Shown: positions 23,731-64,000 of the stretch, in pieces
Layout: every line of letters starts with the position of its first letter
How positions within the stretch are numbered: position 1 is the first letter of the stretch
Origin: an uncultured Candidatus Melainabacteria bacterium
GTDB lineage: Bacteria; Cyanobacteriota; Vampirovibrionia; Gastranaerophilales; Gastranaerophilaceae
DNA: 64,000 nt
Direction of reading: 5' to 3'
Assembly (NCBI GenBank): GCA_947361615.1
Contig: CANAJP010000002.1
Coordinates: forward strand, 18,344 to 82,343
Program-made: the position numbers and the translations under genes
Notes under the pieces: model-generated
Databases searched by the model: none
Seen by the model: only the letters and a program-made list of their open reading frames with translations
Told to the model about the DNA's origin: nothing

Positions 23731-24890
23731 ATGAAAAACTTAAAAGCTGAAAACCCTTGTAGTGTAGCCTTTTCCACTGAGGGGGGGGGGGGCAAGACTT
23801 AGTTAGTGAAAAGTCGTTAGTTAAGAGTCAAGAGTTCAATATGGGGAATAAACCCGTGCGTAGCGCGCATAACGAACTCCTTACTCATTACTCTTCACTC
23901 CTCACTAACTCTGCGTTTACGATGGCTGAAATATTATTATCCCTCACCATCATCGGCGTGGTTGCGGCAATTACATTACCAAGTTTAACCGGAAACATTA
24001 ACGAGCGCATGTGGAACACGCAGCGCAAAGCACTTTATGCTAGATTTTCACAGGCTATTTCTTTAATGCCTGCTCTTAACGGATATGGAACTTTAACTCA
24101 GGACGCTAGCGGAAGTGTTACGACAGATACAGCAACGGAAACTTTTATCACCGCAGGACTGGCCAAAGTTTTAAAAATTAACAACATTTGTGATAACGAT
24201 CACCTGCCTGAGTGCGGAATTGTATCTTCCATCATAAATATGGGTGTGACTAAAATCACAACGCCTAAAAATCTTTACGAATTAAATAACCACTTCCAAA
24301 GTGCTTCGGTGTATGGGTTAGCAAATTTTTCGGCTATTAATACCAAAGCTGCCGCGTTTGAAACACAAAATGGGGAAAGTATCATTGCCTACTATAACCC
24401 CTCTTGTAGGACTCAATATTTGAGCAACGAACAAATGAGTTCAACTATGAATACTTTTGGGTACCCGCAAACTACTATGTGTGCGAATTTTATCTATGAC
24501 TTAAACGGGCTTAAAGGGCCGAACACTGTTGGAAAAGATATTGGTTTTATAACTGTATTCAATGCCATTGATTCAATCGTAGTCGCTCCAATGCCGTCTG
24601 CTAATACAAATGCAACATTCGAAGGTTCTAATAATATGATTTGGAATAACGCAGCAAAAGCATGTACGCTTCAGGATTCAGAAAGCAGAATTCCAAATAT
24701 TGAAGAAGCATCTGCTATGTTAATTAATAAAAATTTAATCAATTTAAGCAGCGCACCAGCAAATTATTATTGGACAAGCACAATTCTTGCAACTAACCCT
24801 AGACAAGCCTGGCAAATTGTTCCCAACAAAGGGATTCGAACAACTGAGTACAAAACACAGCTACGCTTTGTTAGATGTATAAAACGTTAG
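23731..24890 (+). CDS. type IV prepilin-like surface protein, poly-G contingency gene (frame broken by G12 at 23781-23792); ORF-track start 23841
   Basis: SAFTMAEILLSLTIIGVVAAITLPSL; C-terminal YYWTSTI…LRFVRCIKR; an upstream ATG with RBS is fused in-frame if the G tract is 13 nt. Confidence 0.8.
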
Positions 24891-28176: not shown

Positions 28177-29378
28177 TTATCGTTTAACACACCAGACAGG
28201 ATAGTTTGTACCAACACCCCAATCGTCAATCTCTCCAGTGCCCATATTTGCTGCAATACCAACAAGGTTGCCGTCCCTCGGCCTTGTTTGAACGGTTGAC
28301 GACCAATAAGTGGTATTTGTAAATCCTACCGGTTGCAACAATTGTTTATTTACGAACATTGCATAAGTTTCTTCCAGATTAGGCAAACGGTATTCCGCAT
28401 CCATGTTCGTACAAGCTTTTCCCGCGTTTCTTTGTGCTGATGCAGGTAATGTTTTCGCTGCCGCTTGCGGCGCAATAACTACCGGATCACTTGGATATAA
28501 AACTGTCATAACTCCAATATCTTTACCCACAGTATTAGGGCCTTTGTTACCGTTTAAATCAAAAACAAAATTTGCACAAACCGTTCGTTGATAAAGAGAA
28601 CCAGCCGCCTGGCCTGATGAATTAACACCCCAATTGATATCATTCAAGGAGCCCATACAATACGGATTTACATAAGCTATAATACTTTCTCCATTTTTCG
28701 TTTCAAATGCAGCAGCTTTTGTATCCTTGACATAGAAAGACTGAACACCATTATTGAGAGAGCCAACCATTTTAGGGTTTAATTCTTTCATAGTTGTCGG
28801 TACGCTTTGGGTAGAGCCAGCCATTGTCGTGATTTTACTTGAAATTCCGCAATCATTTAAATGAGTATTATCGCAAACATTATTAACTTGAAGAACTTTA
28901 CCTAATACATTTGTCACAAAAGTTTCGGCTGCGGTATCAACACCATCACCGGCACCTGAAGAACTTTCTTCTGTTACAGTTGCATAACCGTTCAACGCCG
29001 GCATTAGGGCAATTGCCTGTGAAAATCGCGCATAAAGAGCTTTTCTCTGAGTGTTCCATGTACGTTCGTTAATGTTACCGGTTAGCGATGGCAACGTTAT
29101 CGCTGCGACCACGCCGATAATTGTTAATGATAGCAGGATTTCGGCCATGGTGAAAGCTACTCGTTGTACAGTAGCCCGCAAACCCATTATGGAACCCGCT
29201 TGACCGCGGGTGTCATGCTGAACTCGTTTCAGCATCTGGCCAGCGTGGAATTCTACCAGTGACGTTTGACAGATCCCGAAACAAGTTCGGGATGACAAGT
29301 GGGAGTAGAACGCCCCACTATTTCTACCAAAGAGGCTCCCCCCCCCCCTGTCAAAGTGTTTACAATTTTGTTTTTCAT
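28177..29378 (-). CDS. type IV prepilin-like surface protein, poly-G contingency gene (frame broken by G11 at 29338-29348)
   Basis: AFTMAEILLSLTIIGVVAAITLPSL; ATG at 29378 (MKNKIVNTLT-GGGG…) fuses in-frame if the tract is 12 nt; ORF-track start 29298 is a TTG inside a palindromic repeat. Confidence 0.8.
29211..29296. repeat. palindromic repeat of the GTCATGCTGAAC family, inside the prepilin leader region
   Basis: GTCATGCTGAACTCGTTTCAGCATCTG … CAGATCCCGAAACAAGTTCGGGATGAC. Confidence 0.85.
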
Positions 29379-32205: not shown

Positions 32206-34413
32206 TTGTCAAAATACGCTTTAGCATTAGTAAATATCAAGGGATTGGGGGTAAAGACATACAGTTACCTTATTCCTGATGAAATGCAGGGCAAAATCCA
32301 AATCGGTCAGGTTATTCTTGTACCTTTTGGAAGACAAGGACTCGTAAATGCTTTTTGTGTGGGGTTTTCCGACTACTTACCACCCGAAATCAGGGCTAAA
32401 AAGGTGAGTAAAATTCTGGAGGGAAATCCCCTTTTTAATATTGATTATTTGAAGCTTCTTGAATGGGTTGCGAATTACTATTGCACGGATTTAATTACGG
32501 TTATAAATGCTGCAATTCCTTTAAAATTAATCGAGAAAGCCTCAAAAACCGAACAGTATTTAGAATTTGTACACTTTGATGGAGCAACAAAACGTCAGGT
32601 TGAAGTGCTTGAAAAACTTCAAACACGTGGCAAATGCAATCTTATTGTGTTTGAAAAAGAGGCAAAAACAACCCGCGCAACAATCAAAAAGCTTGAAGAA
32701 CTCGGCTGTCTGCGCCTGAGTAACGAGGAGCTTTACCGCAACCCGCTTGATGTTCTGCGCATAACTGAGCGCGAAGAACTTTTTGAACTTTCCCCGGAAC
32801 AAAATACCGTTTATGAGGGCATAAAAAAGAAAATAGCTCAAACGCCGACAGATACGATTCTTTTGCACGGTGTTACTGCAAGCGGAAAGACAGAAGTTTA
32901 TTTCAAACTCATTGATGATTGTATAAAATCAGGCAAAAATGTTCTTTTTCTTGCGCCTGAAATTGCACTTGCCTCACAGCTTACCAAACGTCTTGCGCGA
33001 AAATTCGGGACCGAAGATGTTGCCATCTGGCACAGTAGTATTTCAGACGGCGAACGGTACGACGTCTGGCAAAAACTTTACCGTGACGAAATAAAAATAC
33101 TCGCAGGCGCACGATCTGCGGTTTTTGCCCCGCTAAAAAACATCGGCCTGATTATTATTGACGAAGAACACGAAGGCGCATACAAACAAACCAGCCCTGC
33201 TCCGCGTTATGACGCAAAAGTGGTTGCGCAAAAATTACAGGAGTTTCACAACTGCCCGATGATTTTAGGCTCTGCAACTCCTGATATTTCAAGTTATTAT
33301 CGCGCAATAAACAGCAAAAACCTTTTTGAAATGCTTAAACGCTACAATAACGCCAAAGTTCCGCCTGTGTCGGTTATAAACATGCAAAATCACGGCAAAG
33401 CCGCATATAAAAACCTTATTTCCAAACCCTTGCAGACTGCAATCACCGAAACCCTTGAAAAGGGTCAACAGATAATTCTGCTTATCAATCGCCGCGGATT
33501 TTCGACATACTCACAATGTCAGGCCTGCGGCCATGTAATAGAATGTCCGCATTGTGCAATTCCGATGATTTGGCACGCAAAAGACCAGCGCTTAAAATGC
33601 CACTACTGCAATCATACTGAATACTTCCCTGATTTTTGCCCGTCCTGCGGCTCAGACTCATTCAAAAACAGCGGGGTCGGAACACAAAAAATAGAGCAGT
33701 ACATAAAAGAACTTTACCCTGAAAACAATGTTGAGCGTATCGACAGCGACATTCTAACCCGCAAAGGCGAACATGTTCGCTTGCTAGAAAAATTCCAACG
33801 GGGTGAAATTGATATTCTTGTCGGCACACAAATGATTGCCAAAGGCCTCGACAACCCGAACGTAACCCTTGTCGGCGTAATCTCAGCGGACGCAAGTTTT
33901 AACCTGCCGGATTTTAGGGCATCAGAGCGCGGATTTCAACTTCTAACGCAGGTGGCAGGACGCGCAGGACGCGGAGAATTCTCGGGAAGCGTAATTTTCC
34001 AAACATACAACCCCGACTACTACGCTCTTGCAAGCGCAAAATCACAAAACTACAAAGAATTTTATGATACCGAAATTGTAGCACGTGAAGAATTCGACTA
34101 CCCGCCATTCAGCCAGATTATCCGTATAATTCTTAGTAGTGAAAACAACTTCCGCGCCGAAAAATCAGCGCAGGAAATTGTTTTACGACTTGCCACTATG
34201 ATTGAAAAATTCGGGGTTTCCGAACGTCTTGAGGTGCTGGGGCCAACACCTTGTGTAATTGAACGCATCAACGGACTTTATCGCTTCCAAATAATCATCA
34301 AAAACAAACTTGGTGAAAAAGGTCACAGTTTTATTTCTAGTTTCATAGGAAAGATAACGATGCCACGCGACATCCGTATGGCCGTTGACGTAGATCCTCT
34401 GGATATCCTTTAA
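32206..34413 (+). CDS. priA: primosomal protein N' (replication restart helicase)
   Basis: GVTASGKTEVYF, DEEHEGAYKQ, Zn-binding CQACGHVIECPHC, GRAGRGEFSG. Confidence 0.97.
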   Translation: MSKYALALVNIKGLGVKTYSYLIPDEMQGKIQIGQVILVPFGRQGLVNAFCVGFSDYLPPEIRAKKVSKILEGNPLFNIDYLKLLEWVANYYCTDLITVINAAIPLKLIEKASKTEQYLEFVHFDGATKRQVEVLEKLQTRGKCNLIVFEKEAKTTRATIKKLEELGCLRLSNEELYRNPLDVLRITEREELFELSPEQNTVYEGIKKKIAQTPTDTILLHGVTASGKTEVYFKLIDDCIKSGKNVLFLAPEIALASQLTKRLARKFGTEDVAIWHSSISDGERYDVWQKLYRDEIKILAGARSAVFAPLKNIGLIIIDEEHEGAYKQTSPAPRYDAKVVAQKLQEFHNCPMILGSATPDISSYYRAINSKNLFEMLKRYNNAKVPPVSVINMQNHGKAAYKNLISKPLQTAITETLEKGQQIILLINRRGFSTYSQCQACGHVIECPHCAIPMIWHAKDQRLKCHYCNHTEYFPDFCPSCGSDSFKNSGVGTQKIEQYIKELYPENNVERIDSDILTRKGEHVRLLEKFQRGEIDILVGTQMIAKGLDNPNVTLVGVISADASFNLPDFRASERGFQLLTQVAGRAGRGEFSGSVIFQTYNPDYYALASAKSQNYKEFYDTEIVAREEFDYPPFSQIIRIILSSENNFRAEKSAQEIVLRLATMIEKFGVSERLEVLGPTPCVIERINGLYRFQIIIKNKLGEKGHSFISSFIGKITMPRDIRMAVDVDPLDIL

Positions 34414-35559
34414 TCCATCCGACGAATACAGTATAAACTCATACCACGCAATTCTGCTTTAGTTGTACAGTTACGATAGCCTATAGCTGTACTTACCCGC
34501 CAGGCCTTTCCACTATCGCATGAACTTGTTGTCCAAAGTATTTCTGGAAGCGAAGAGCCTAAGAATTTTTTATTTACAAATACAGCCGCACCCTCGTCAT
34601 AATTAGGTGCTCTGCCTTCACCATAACGTTCCTTGCATAATCTATTAGCTGCACTAAAATCACCACCTTGTCCAGAAAGCGAACCGTATGGTGAAACAGC
34701 TACTACATTTGAGTCTGACGGATACATTACGGTAATAAACCCGATATCTTTACCAACCGTGTTCGGGCCTTTAGAACCATTCAAATCATAAACAAAATTA
34801 ACACACATAGATTTTTGTGCATAATTAAGTTTTTCACCGTTTGAACGTTGTTCATCTATATCCGCAGTACAAGCAGGGTTATAATATGCAATAATACTCT
34901 CACCGCTGATCGTTTCAAAGGCTCCCGCATCAACATCAGCAACAGTCACCGAATGTGTATACGTACCACCGGCAGAATTAGTAAATACTTTATAATAGCT
35001 AAATGCAGAGTTTAAATTATATAGAGTATCAGGAACAGAAGCAAGCTGCGAACCGTTAAAATCAGTAATTTTAGACGGAATTCCACAATCAGCTAAATGC
35101 TTGTTATCACAAATATTATTAATTTTTAAAACTTTTGACAAACCATCGGTCAAAAAGGTCTGTGTTGCTATAGATTTTGTTTCTGACGTAGTTGCCCCTT
35201 GCCCATAACCATTCAATGCAGGCATTAAAGCTATTGCCTGTGACATACGTGCATAAAGTGCTTTTCGCTGCGTATTCCATGTGCGCTCGTTTATGTTTCC
35301 TGTCAATGACGGCAAAGTTATCGCCGCAACTACACCGATAATTGTGAGAGATAATAATATTTCCGCCATAGTAAAGGCCAAGCCGAGCGGAGCCACGGAG
35401 CGAAGCGGAGAGACGAGCGCGCGACGCGGCAAACCGCGCTTTGGCACGCAAGCGCGAGCGGTGGCGTTCAACGCGAGGCGCAGTTCTAACGCCCCACTAA
35501 ATATACCTAAGAGAGGCCCCCCCCCCCCCTGTCCATGTTAAGACATTAAGTTTTTTCAT
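34410..35559 (-). CDS. type IV prepilin-like surface protein, poly-G contingency gene (frame broken by G13 at 35517-35529)
   Basis: AFTMAEILLSLTIIGVVAAITLPSL; ATG at 35559 (MKKLNVLTWT-GGGG…) in-frame with 12 G; ORF-track start 35471 is a TTG. Confidence 0.8.
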
Positions 35560-35631
35560 AAGTTTCTTCCTTTCTGTATAAAATTATTATGCAGCATGTT
35601 TTAAGATATGTCAACCTTGTATGACACAGCC

Positions 35632-36246
35632 TTAGCGTGCATTCGCCGGTGCGCTCAAATATAACGGCGTAAGTTTTCCCCAGTCGCCATCCTCATTTTC
35701 AGCTTTTTTAACCGCAATTTGCGCGATAATTTCACCCAAATTCAGATTCAACGCCTGATATGAAACTCCACCCAAAAACGGTTGCAATTTATCATCAGTC
35801 ACAACAAAATATCCGTCAGTCACAATTTCACCCAACGGCAAAATTCCTTTAATTTCACCATCAATCGCGACATAAGCACTTTCGCGACGTGCGTCAAGCG
35901 CGATTAATTTCTTTTTGCCCTCAAAATCGACCGGTAAATTTTCTAAAACCTCAAAAGATGTAACGCCAATAAGTTTTTTGCCCAATTCCTGCGCCATAAC
36001 CCGAGCAACAGTCATACAGGTTCTAATTGCCGTAAACCCGCCGGGGCCTACGCTTGTTGCAATCAAATCCAAATCCGCAAATGTTAAACCGTTTGAAATC
36101 AAGGCATATTTAATAGTTTGGTGCAACAATGGTGATCGAGTTTGCATTTCCTCGTAAGAAACAGCAACGGCACTAAGTGAAACACCGTCACGAACCAAAG
36201 TTACATACATTTTATCCATACAAGTATCAAACGCTAAAACTAACAT
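35632..36246 (-). CDS. tsaB: tRNA threonylcarbamoyladenosine biosynthesis protein TsaB
   Basis: MLVLAFDTCMDKMYVTLV; DLIATSVGPGGFTAIRTCM. Confidence 0.93.
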   Translation of the reverse strand: MLVLAFDTCMDKMYVTLVRDGVSLSAVAVSYEEMQTRSPLLHQTIKYALISNGLTFADLDLIATSVGPGGFTAIRTCMTVARVMAQELGKKLIGVTSFEVLENLPVDFEGKKKLIALDARRESAYVAIDGEIKGILPLGEIVTDGYFVVTDDKLQPFLGGVSYQALNLNLGEIIAQIAVKKAENEDGDWGKLTPLYLSAPANAR

Positions 36247-38924: not shown

Positions 38925-40104
38925 TCACCGTTTCACACAATACGCATCCAATCTATCCGCAGGAGTGGAACCACCAAATCCTTGGACCAAAACAGCGGTA
39001 CCGGCATTTGTAAACAACCCTTTGACTTTACCACCTTCAACAGCCGTAGATGACCACAAATGCTGCCCCGTCTTAATATCATATAATTTGTGGTTAACAA
39101 ATAACGAAACCAATTCCTCAAAATTGGGCAGACGATATTCCTCATCCATTTTTCTACAAGCAGATACTCCCTCTTGGAAATAAACGTGGTGCAAAGCTTC
39201 TTTATTATTAATAACCGGCGCAACTACAACGCTATCGCTTGAATATAATGCCGTCATGACACCAATATCTTTGCCCACAGTATTTGGCCCTTTTGAACCA
39301 TTCAAATCATAAAGAAAATTCACACAAACTTTCGACTGTACTTTATAAGAAGTTCTTTCATTCATGTTGGATGTACATTTCGGGTTATAATATACTACAA
39401 GACTTTCGCCGTTAGCCGTTTCAAAGGCCGCTACCTTTGTATTTTTAAACATTGAATAAGAAAGCATTTCGCCGTTCAAATCTGCGAAAGTAGCAGGAAA
39501 AGAAGCTACTTTATTTCCATTTACTGTATTAAAACCTTTGCTAGTAATACCACAATCATATAAATGTTCGCTGGCACAAATATTATTTATCTTTAACACT
39601 TTGGACAGTCCGGCCACAACAAAAGTTTCTGCGGCAGTATCTTCTGCATCGCTTGCACCTGCTGAACTTTCTTCTTTTAGGGTTCCATAACCATTTAATG
39701 CAGGCATTAACGCTATCGCCTGCGAAAATCTCGCATAAAGCGCTTTACGCTGAGTATTCCAGGTTCGCTCGTTAATGTTACCTGTTAATGACGGCAACGT
39801 TATCGCAGCAACTACACCGATTATCGTTAGGGATAAAAGAATTTCAGCCATAGTAAATGCAATACAGGTCACCCTTTTTCTGTCATGCTGAACTCGTTTC
39901 AGCATCTGTCCAGCGCTACATTCTACCGGTGTCGTTTGACAGATCCCGAAACAAGTTCGGGATGACAAATGTAGTAAACACATTATCCTTATTAACTTAT
40001 TAACATGCCAACTTATTAACTCGGCGTTCTCTTCTATTAGGCGTGGGCCGTTAAGAAAACTCCCCCCCCCCCCCTGATAAAATGTTTACATTTCTCTTGT
40101 TCAT
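38925..40104 (-). CDS. type IV prepilin-like surface protein, poly-G contingency gene (frame broken by G13 at 40062-40074)
   Basis: AFTMAEILLSLTIIGVVAAITLPSL; ATG at 40104 (MNKRNVNILS-GGGG…) in-frame with 12 G. Confidence 0.8.
39880..39965. repeat. palindromic repeat of the GTCATGCTGAAC family, inside the prepilin leader region
   Basis: Same inverted-repeat arms as 29211-29296. Confidence 0.85.
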
Positions 40105-47137: not shown

Positions 47138-48528
47138 TCGCTAACTTCTTTCTGCTTTGCAACCAAAAAATCTACAACTCTAACAGCACTTTCACCTCTA
47201 TACTGCCAGGCTACATCTTTTGCCGACTCAATAACATTCTGAGGAACAGTTTCCCCTATCTCACTTATTATTTGAACAACATCAGAAAGATTTTCTCTGT
47301 TTAATTCTTTGCCAATCTCTTTAACAACACAGTAACGCCAAGGAGTTTCATCCAAATCAGACATATCGTATAAATCAATATTCATCTCTGTATCTATATA
47401 TATAAAAGGTCTGTTAAATAAAAATGCATAATCAAACATTACACACGAAAAATCACTTATCATAATATCAGCTTTGCTCAAAACATCAAGGTTGTTAGAA
47501 TCAAAATTCCAGCTAATATTCTCATAATCTTTAAAATCATTCATTAATTTTTCAACGACATCACGCTCAGCAGTCATTGATTGTGGGTGCGGTCTAACAA
47601 CGATATTAAACGAAGATTTTGATAAATGACCTAAAAGCTCGGCACCAAATTTGCACAATAACCCATCCGGCCCCCAACTCGGTGCAACCAAAACCGTAAC
47701 TGAATTGTCATTCCTTGAGAGGAGGCCCCCCCCCCCCCCGGCTAGTTCGGCCGCGAGAAAATCCATATATGTACTTCCAACAACCGGTAATTCCTTGGCC
47801 GGAAGATTTCTTTTCATTTCTAATTCACGGATTAATGGAACCTGATATTCTCCATCACACAAAACTGAATCATAATAATCAACCCCAAATAAATGGTAAT
47901 CAACAGATATCCCTATAGAATGAAAAATATGACTATAATGCTTCACAAACTTAGAACGTTTTAACTGCAATACATCCAACTGTGGAGTCGTCATCAAACA
48001 AACATCCGCACGCAAAAAAGCCAGCTTAAAATATGCACTGTTTCCCTGTCCGATATATTCGCCTGTAACATATTCATATTTTTCATCGAAAAACGGATCA
48101 TCATCGCTAGAAGTCAAATAAACAAGCGGAATCTTACGTCGTTCAAACTCATCAAGAACGGGTTTAAAAACCGGGAAATATCTTGTGCCCTCAGAATAAA
48201 TTACAAAAGTTTTATTATCCTTGCTCAAACCACGTGAGGCAAAAAGAGAACCTTTCAGTTTTATAAATAAAGAATACAACACGAAATAAGCCGTCGCGCA
48301 CATACCTAATACGACAGAAAAGAGCATACTTCCCGTTCCCGGGTCAATATACGCCCACGCAGGAGTATAAAATCCGATTGCTATAAATATAAACAAAACA
48401 CTTGTAATAATCCGTGCAAAAGAAATTCCCATTTCCAGCTCTCCTAACAAGGAGTATCGCATAAAAATTTCAGAATAGCAAAAAAAATTTTTCAGGAGTT
48501 TATAATAAAAAATCATGGACATGTTCAC
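47131..48528 (-). CDS. CDP-glycerol:poly(glycerophosphate) glycerophosphotransferase-like protein containing an in-frame G14 tract
   Basis: SVTVLVAPSWGPDGLLCKFG, VVRPHPQS, ADIMISDFSCVMFDYAFLFNRPFIYID; poly-G encodes AGGGGGLL; true start likely downstream of 48528. Confidence 0.88.
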   Translation of the reverse strand: MNMSMIFYYKLLKNFFCYSEIFMRYSLLGELEMGISFARIITSVLFIFIAIGFYTPAWAYIDPGTGSMLFSVVLGMCATAYFVLYSLFIKLKGSLFASRGLSKDNKTFVIYSEGTRYFPVFKPVLDEFERRKIPLVYLTSSDDDPFFDEKYEYVTGEYIGQGNSAYFKLAFLRADVCLMTTPQLDVLQLKRSKFVKHYSHIFHSIGISVDYHLFGVDYYDSVLCDGEYQVPLIRELEMKRNLPAKELPVVGSTYMDFLAAELAGGGGGLLSRNDNSVTVLVAPSWGPDGLLCKFGAELLGHLSKSSFNIVVRPHPQSMTAERDVVEKLMNDFKDYENISWNFDSNNLDVLSKADIMISDFSCVMFDYAFLFNRPFIYIDTEMNIDLYDMSDLDETPWRYCVVKEIGKELNRENLSDVVQIISEIGETVPQNVIESAKDVAWQYRGESAVRVVDFLVAKQKEVSEC

Positions 48529-63178: not shown

Positions 63179-63935
63179 ACCAGTAATTCGTTACATTTGC
63201 ACGATCCTCGTGTTTTCCACCATGAATAGCATTCGCGACATAAAAATTACTTACAGTTACACTAGAAACTGGCGAACCTATACAATATTCACCTGAAATA
63301 GCACTCGCAAGCACAATCGGAACCACAGAATATTTCTTAGGGAAAGTATGTGTATTAAAACCTACAGCCTTTCCCCATTGTAATAACAGTATACGTGTTG
63401 TTTTTGAACTGTTTGAGAATAATTCAAAATAACTATCACCAGTTGTAACTGAAATATTGTAATATAGCCCATTAGCTGTTGCCGTAGATATCGCCGATTT
63501 TACGAATGCCGTTGTAGCTATTTTGGTCGAATTATCTCCCGTTGGGGGGGTAGGTGCCGCAGTGATGACATTACCATTTTTATCAACTGTTGCTTCAAGC
63601 ATAGCCGTAACATTGGTTCCATCAGGCTTGTTAAGTCTAGCAATCATTTGAGAACCCACTGCTCCTGATGTGGAAACGAAACTACGAAAATCACTGCGTA
63701 TTGTATTATTAGCATTTAATGTTCGAAAACTACGAATACGAACACTTTCAGGAACGCTTCCATTACCAGTAAAACCTGTATCTTTTAGCATGTGATGAAC
63801 TTGTCCATCTGCTAAAGTCGAAGATACAAATAGAGAATTTAAAAATGTCTTTATACCACTTATAGTTTCATTCCCAACTAAATGCATAAATTTTTTATCA
63901 ATGATACCATTTTCATTGTACAAATAAGCGGTTCG
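63162..63935 (-). CDS. phage tail fibre protein, C-terminal part (truncated by contig end)
   Basis: HLVGNETISGIKTFLNS; APTPPTGDNSTKIATTAFVKSAI; frame open up to the terminal poly-G. Confidence 0.8.
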   Translation of the reverse strand, partial: RTAYLYNENGIIDKKFMHLVGNETISGIKTFLNSLFVSSTLADGQVHHMLKDTGFTGNGSVPESVRIRSFRTLNANNTIRSDFRSFVSTSGAVGSQMIARLNKPDGTNVTAMLEATVDKNGNVITAAPTPPTGDNSTKIATTAFVKSAISTATANGLYYNISVTTGDSYFELFSNSSKTTRILLLQWGKAVGFNTHTFPKKYSVVPIVLASAISGEYCIGSPVSSVTVSNFYVANAIHGGKHEDRANVTNYWFAIGK

Positions 63936-63968
63936 GGGGGGGGGCCGGGGGGGGGGGGGGGGGGGGGT

Positions 63969-64000
<32 letters not shown>

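Follow-up and report, generated by a model that had tools for sequence, protein, structure and literature searches.

Does a run of 13 Gs in the leader of a prepilin-like gene mark a gene that has been switched off and can be switched on again, or is the run irrelevant, compensated during expression, or an error? The question is raised by a gene, hereafter referred to as copy 3, on the minus strand of a 64,000-nt stretch of DNA (the window) taken from a MAG of a Gastranaerophilus bacterium (genome G000). In our view, the run is very probably a slipped-strand phase variation switch, one of many in a very large adhesin repertoire that is mostly OFF but poised. Here, we will describe the reading frames of copy 3 and the family to which it belongs, weigh the alternatives against the lengths of the tracts, and then turn to the predicted product and to related systems.

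The tract and reading frames of copy 3

Copy 3 is located between tsaB (35632-36246, minus strand) and the convergent priA (32206-34413, plus strand). Its features, in window coordinates, are:

35586-35614, minus: sigma-70-type promoter, from sequence (-35 TTGACA at 35609-35614, 17 nt, -10 CATAAT at 35586-35591)
35566-35575, minus: Shine-Dalgarno sequence AGAAAGGAAG, from sequence, 6 nt upstream of ATG 35559
35530-35559, minus: 5' leader MKKLNVLTWT of the common class A, 30 nt from ATG to tract as read from the sequence
35517-35529, minus: G13 tract; 12 Gs join ATG 35559 to the prepilin frame, and the assembled state is OFF by +1
35376-35516, minus: in-frame spacer of 141 nt from tract to prepilin motif, without a stop in the pilin frame
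35376-35484, minus: GC-rich interspersed element within this spacer, LRLALNATARAC...ALVSPLRSVAPLGLA
34410-35375, minus: mature prepilin body, 321 aa plus stop, intact
35310-35375, minus: type IV pilin N-terminal segment FTMAEILLSLTIIGVVAAITLP with predicted prepilin peptidase site A|F (weak profile matches, modelled helix)
34413-34763, minus: C-terminal Lcl_C/C-type-lectin-like domain, residues ~205-321 (model, fold and profile comparisons)

The tract is exactly where a first-pass annotation, made from the letters alone, had placed it: the plus strand reads C13, flanked by G and T. From base frequencies, 8e-5 G or C runs of at least 13 nt are expected in the window, and runs of at least 9 nt far exceed those in dinucleotide shuffles (a count that takes in contig-end poly-G); the G13 run of copy 3 is not due to chance. 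Translation from ATG 35559 through 13 Gs gives MKKLNVLTWTGGGGASLRYI and stops after 20 codons, and with 14 Gs it ends in ...GGGGGLS, so that both lengths close the frame as had been claimed. A tract of 11 Gs ends in ...GGGGLS, all three lengths stopping after 16-20 codons. The length proposed to restore the gene, 12 Gs, does give a single prepilin ORF of 382 aa, MKKLNVLTWTGGGGPLLGIFSGALELRLALNATARACVPKRGLPRRALVSPLRSVAPLGLA-FTMAEILLSL...YCIRRMD. The likeness of its post-tract text, GGGGPLLGxxSGA, to that of a second copy in the window, copy 2 (GGGGSLFGRNSGA), is real and is shared by several other paralogues. Comparison of paralogues and species, used in place of the strain comparison that had been suggested, strongly supports 12 Gs as the coding (ON) length.

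There are four other long tracts within the window, three of which are likewise found in prepilin leaders:

23781-23792, plus: G12 tract of another prepilin-like copy with a class B leader, ON = 13, OFF
29338-29348, minus: G11 tract of prepilin-like copy 2, ON = 12, OFF
40062-40074, minus: G13 tract of a fourth prepilin-like copy, ON = 12, OFF

A G14 tract (47726-47739, minus) is seen inside a Glyphos_transf (CDP-glycerol glycerophosphotransferase-like) gene whose frame is intact; this is probably a second, glycan-related contingency gene.

A paralogue family with tracts and spacers in its leaders

Queried with the mature copy 3 protein, its own 1.83-Mb genome yields 108 matches, and the six congeners (G001-G006) yield 96-128 each except for G002, which has 13; with the conserved 60-residue N-terminus there are 103 matches in G000 and 112 in G001. 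The pilin-lectin family thus comprises ~100 genes in each of these genomes but G002, roughly 6% of the 1.8-Mb G000. The genome set holds one genome per species, consists of MAGs and covers G003-G006 in part. Within the fetched G000 regions, 91 genes carry an FTMAEILLSL-type motif: 55 have an upstream tract, ~6 are tract-free and start directly before the motif, and for the remainder a contig end comes first. Nearly all G000 paralogues with readable upstream sequence therefore bear a leader G tract. Two of the 13 members in G002 were inspected and have short leaders without G tracts, a possible ancestral state. Beyond the genus, many prepilin genes are present in a good part of the bacterial family, with tracts shortly before FTMAE in Gastranaerophilus and one further genus and G tracts shortly before FTLAE in 13 of 41 genera; these genus counts are undercounts, since both patterns admit only short spacers.

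Two classes of leader are common. In class A (MKxxxVLxxA-GGGG), 30 or 33 nt separate ATG and tract and ON is 12; in class B (MKxLxxENPCxMxLLSR-GGG), the distance is ~49 nt and ON is 11, or 10 if the spacer is 1 mod 3. Of 51 G000 tract genes, 33 are preceded by a promoter of the form TTGAC[A/T]-17-[CT]A.., the spacing being 17 nt in every case; among control windows the figure is 51 of 4534.

The distance from tract to motif is 10 to 381 nt for G000 spacers and reaches 504 nt in G005. Spacers of 12-504 nt with unrelated sequences are nearly always open in the pilin frame and rich in stops in the other two. Among 86 non-redundant spacers of at least 30 nt from six species, 77 leave a single frame open, which for 76 of them is the pilin frame (P about 3e-35; as paralogues are not independent, P values are rough guides). 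In G000, the pilin frame is open in 37 of 41 such spacers, the other frames in 1 and 5, and stops number 12 in the pilin frame against 165 and 143 in the other two. Spacers with several pilin-frame stops (L081 and L111 in G000, L229 in G006) have their own ATG directly before the motif, those in G000 ending in ...LMKRIA-FTMAEIL, and the genes behind a few other spacers with stops look, from their sequence, as if locked OFF.

These spacers bear on whether translation might begin downstream of the tract, for example at TTG 35471, which would make the tract irrelevant. The ORF listing does open the gene there, as a 353-aa ORF, and a few tract-free paralogues start right before FTMAEIL; however, TTG 35471 is without a Shine-Dalgarno sequence, ATG 35559 by contrast is preceded by both AGAAAGGAAG and a promoter, and a downstream start leaves unexplained why spacers stay open in the pilin frame from the tract on. 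We regard such a start as very improbable and continue with ATG 35559 as the start of a putatively switchable gene.

The first-pass annotation had also expected a synonymous bias in the ON frame of the spacer, and this expectation failed: in homologous spacers synonymous counts are equal in all frames, being no higher in the ON frame than in the other two, and all three codon positions take a similar share of the differences (12, 16 and 15% of sites). What is constrained in 35376-35516 is therefore openness and frame, and not amino acids. The syntenic gene of a sister species, G003 (72% identical, with tsaB as neighbour), has 12 Gs and reads ON; its spacer is 15 nt long and without the GC-rich element, that of copy 3 being longer by 126 nt, a multiple of three. 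Spacers are built largely of interspersed repeats. The copy 3 element recurs in the leaders of other pilin genes, in either orientation, and a single time outside leaders in the regions fetched. For the copy 2 element, the counts are 52 in leaders and 30 outside them. At 28177-29298 and 38925-39983 of the window (minus), the repeats are short, palindromic and interspersed (HPELVSGS / GQMLKRVQHD / RNKFGMT); prepilin leaders carry them as in-frame fusions in either orientation (the same counts of 52 and 30).

G tracts are also found away from prepilin genes, in either orientation (L064:1196-1209, L072:1202-1211, L080:6591-6601, L086:1202-1214, L099:1196-1209, L101:11695-11704 and L108:19-28). 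A 3' flank [CT]T[TC]AAC[AC]G is present within 24 nt in 6 of 15 such tracts, against a background of ~0.005, as if tract and flank formed a dispersed DNA motif.

Tract length and the state of the genes

ON length is not constant (9-13), being 10, 11, 12 or 13 depending on leader class, and the observed tract length tracks it: G000 tracts are 13 where ON is 12, 12 where ON is 11, 11 where ON is 10 and 14 where ON is 13. The 48 usable G000 tracts comprise 5 at ON, 40 at ON+1 and 3 at ON-1, and when tract lengths were shuffled among genes none of 20,000 trials reached the observed number of +1 cases. Pooling G000, G004, G005 and G006 (104 tracts) gives 16, 84 and 4 for ON, ON+1 and ON-1, tract length again following ON length (chi2 p 2e-16); G001 was left out of the pooled counts because there are Ns or scaffold joins within its tracts. 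The other genomes differ: G003 is mostly ON (12, 4 and 5), G121, from another genus, has 1, 0 and 14, and G047 is mixed (7, 6 and 3).

Polymerases and ribosomes tend to slip on long runs of G, which brings up the alternative that the off-by-one length is itself the working state, the frame being corrected by RNA polymerase slippage or programmed ribosomal frameshifting; all copies would then have a fixed low expression and nothing would be switched. This slipperiness speaks for it, as does the dominance of one offset in most genomes (ON+1 in G000, G004, G005 and G006). However, fixed recoding needs one constant offset, and the offset is not universal: the 12 of 21 ON tracts in G003, the 14 of 15 at ON-1 in G121 and the mixture in G047 count against it. 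Moreover, slippage that erases the frame should leave tract length untied to the frame that is needed. We therefore think such recoding improbable and return to the switch.

A reading in which tract lengths are assembly or sequencing artefacts, or copy 3 is a decaying pseudogene, draws on the state of the assemblies: the MAG consists of 108 contigs, many of which end at G tracts and some of which have poly-G artefact at their ends, and G001 has Ns at tracts. An assembler is blind to frame, though, and yet tract lengths track frame, so the pattern does not come from assembly; it also recurs in independent assemblies. As for decay, OFF genes keep intact bodies under purifying selection. OFF bodies differ from one another by 32, 25 and 57% at codon positions 1, 2 and 3, and family bodies are at least 257 aa (median 316), apart from a few copies cut at contig ends. 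Artefact or pseudogene is largely refuted, and we consider either extremely improbable. Long poly-G is present at window positions 63935-64000 and at contig ends in L063, L080, L097, L105, L112, L115 and L129, where it looks like the two-colour Illumina artefact, and pilin leaders are frequent break points between the contigs of this MAG. Dual coding in the +1 frame past the motif was considered and rejected: this frame is open for ~95 codons in copy 3, but only 6 of 88 paralogues are open, and their mean of 2.0 stops in 58 codons is about what shuffling codons within columns gives (2.06).

What is left is a switch whose state would be under selection: free switching would put one third of tracts at each offset, and 40 of 48 G000 tracts at a single one call for selection on state. 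We infer that most copies are selected OFF and that slippage favouring contraction piles Gastranaerophilus tracts just above ON, an account that does not cover G121 with its 14 of 15 tracts at ON-1. Recent duplicates were also compared: in a G121 pair, 97% identical, one gene has 11 Gs (ON) and the other 10 (OFF). A duplicate pair in G000 differs by a substitution beside the tract, and one in G047 is less clear.

In the proposed model, the strong promoter would produce copy 3 mRNA, and translation would begin at ATG 35559 and pass the poly-G run into the variable, repeat-filled leader. The prepilin frame would be entered only at 12 Gs (or 9, or 15), 13 Gs stopping it after 20 codons, and gain or loss of one G at replication would flip the gene at random in single cells. 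The prepilin peptidase is predicted to cut downstream of both tract and spacer, so that the mature protein would be unaffected by tract length. About 100 such genes per genome would be mostly OFF, each one slip from ON. The tract, the frames, the open spacers across the family, the tract lengths that follow the frame, the intact bodies under purifying selection, the promoters and the fold are what has been shown for this model; that the tracts slip in living cells and switch expression, that the long leader is cleaved and that the product adheres are its inferred parts.

The predicted product, a diversity-generating retroelement and known systems

Judged from sequence profiles and a structural model, the product is type IV pilin-like and ends in a lectin-like domain; it is most likely a minor pilin or an adhesin. 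In 40 aligned paralogues FTMAEILLSLTIIGV is invariant, and the [GA]|F-T-x-x-E5 pattern is present with ~20 hydrophobic residues; the N-terminal 40 residues are nearly invariant across paralogues and the lectin-like part is variable. GspG, GspH and ComGE models match the pilin N-terminus weakly (E about 1e-3, below curated cut-offs), and PF07963 has 34 matches in the G000 genome. An AlphaFold2 model from the 40 paralogues (pLDDT 89, pTM 0.87) shows a pilin helix and a globular domain, the last ~115 residues of which resemble the Legionella Lcl C-terminal domain (8q4e: Z 6.8, 114 residues, rmsd 4.6), followed by Bdellovibrio Bd2740 (8oks: Z 5.9, 97 residues, rmsd 3.6) and then C-type lectins; the two named matches are the best of 991 chains and their scores are moderate. 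Pfam Lcl_C (PF07603) matches 22 of the 40 paralogues, at best with 2e-7, and copy 3 has no match at 0.1. Matches of single members to Adeno_knob, RxLR and similar Pfam models are below cut-offs and were dismissed as chance.

Pilus assembly ATPases are represented in G000 by four T2SSE matches over the cut-off. No Peptidase_A24 prepilin peptidase was found in this MAG of 108 contigs; congener G006 does have one, as do 39 of 45 sampled genomes of the bacterial family. Copy 3 does not have the short, positively charged leader typical of prepilins, its ON leader being 61 aa, and ON leaders of other copies reach well over 100 aa. Because some tract-free paralogues have short leaders, this mismatch concerns the leader and not the signature of the mature family.

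At least one RT, about 410-430 aa long, is encoded in each of the seven congeners. Diversity-generating retroelements (DGRs), composed of an avd-like ORF, TR and RT, are located at:

L190:6996-10058 (G003 C22)
L407 (G006 C19)
L403 (own genome C32)

In G003 the order is tract-free pilin-lectin, avd-like ORF, TR and RT, and a 166-nt VR is 98% identical to the TR. In G006, 13 of 14 differences between the TR and the 3' VR of the DGR-linked family member fall at TR adenines, the hallmark of DGRs. A member of the pilin-lectin family is a DGR target in the genus. Across ~290 paralogues, variable positions coincide with the codons that the DGR can mutate (3.66 bits of entropy versus 2.24, p 1.5e-6). 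In G001 the tail of a poly-G copy shares 90% identity with the TR; of its 13 mismatches, 9 are at TR adenines (P 4e-4). Copy 3 has no match to the TR, and the window copy does not adjoin a DGR. The bulk of the paralogues were rejected as recent DGR products, the pyrimidine-ending, K/E/Q/M/W-poor codon signature being absent in most, which are therefore either old or diversified otherwise; the poly-G copy in G001 is an exception. That the DGR mutates the pilin-lectin tail, and that poly-G paralogues serve as a tail archive, selected OFF and one slip from ON, is a tentative proposal that we hold to be possible but would not bet on.

Homopolymer-driven frame switching is known from Neisseria pilC and from the poly-G/poly-C contingency genes of Campylobacter and Helicobacter, which resemble the present case in that surface genes are switched. 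Those contingency genes, however, are mixed and unrelated, whereas here most tracts are in one paralogous family. A genome-wide survey confirmed tract variation in 115 meningococcal genes (PMC5084427). In the Neisseria opa genes, CTCTT repeats lie in the sequence coding for the leader peptide, and the repeat number sets the frame of each copy (PMC3745409). Opa and the pilin-lectins are thus both scattered multi-gene adhesin families with a frame-switching repeat in the leader coding sequence (PMC3745409); they differ in number (~11 genes versus ~100), in the repeat (pentamer versus G tract) and in the product (outer-membrane protein versus pilin-lectin), and Opa is without a long repeat-filled spacer, its copies not being known to share an offset from ON. 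The DUF1566/PF07603 domain at the C-terminus of Legionella Lcl (PMC11162425) shares the C-terminal fold but is carried on a collagen-like stalk, in contrast to the type IV pilin helix here. DGRs with DUF1566 targets are also known (PMC6642488); as in these, an avd-TR-RT module adjoins a pilin-lectin family target in Gastranaerophilus, but the window copy lies apart from a DGR and most poly-G copies are without the codon signature of recent mutagenesis. In the literature searched for phase variation, contingency loci, prepilins or homopolymers in this group, no description of the repertoire was found; the one relevant paper deals with pili in a termite-gut member (PMC5877343).

Annotators should be warned that gene calls for OFF copies begin at a false internal start and that the tracts interrupt MAG assemblies. 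Frame switching by leader repeats is already known from Opa, with about eleven genes there. What the frame-tracking offset provides is a sign of selection on phase state that can be read from a genome, and with it the question of whether contingency loci are kept OFF but poised becomes directly testable. The DGR link joins two diversity mechanisms that are usually studied apart. For this non-photosynthetic cyanobacterial relative from animal guts, ~100 phase-variable pilin-lectins would be an unusually large switchable surface repertoire.
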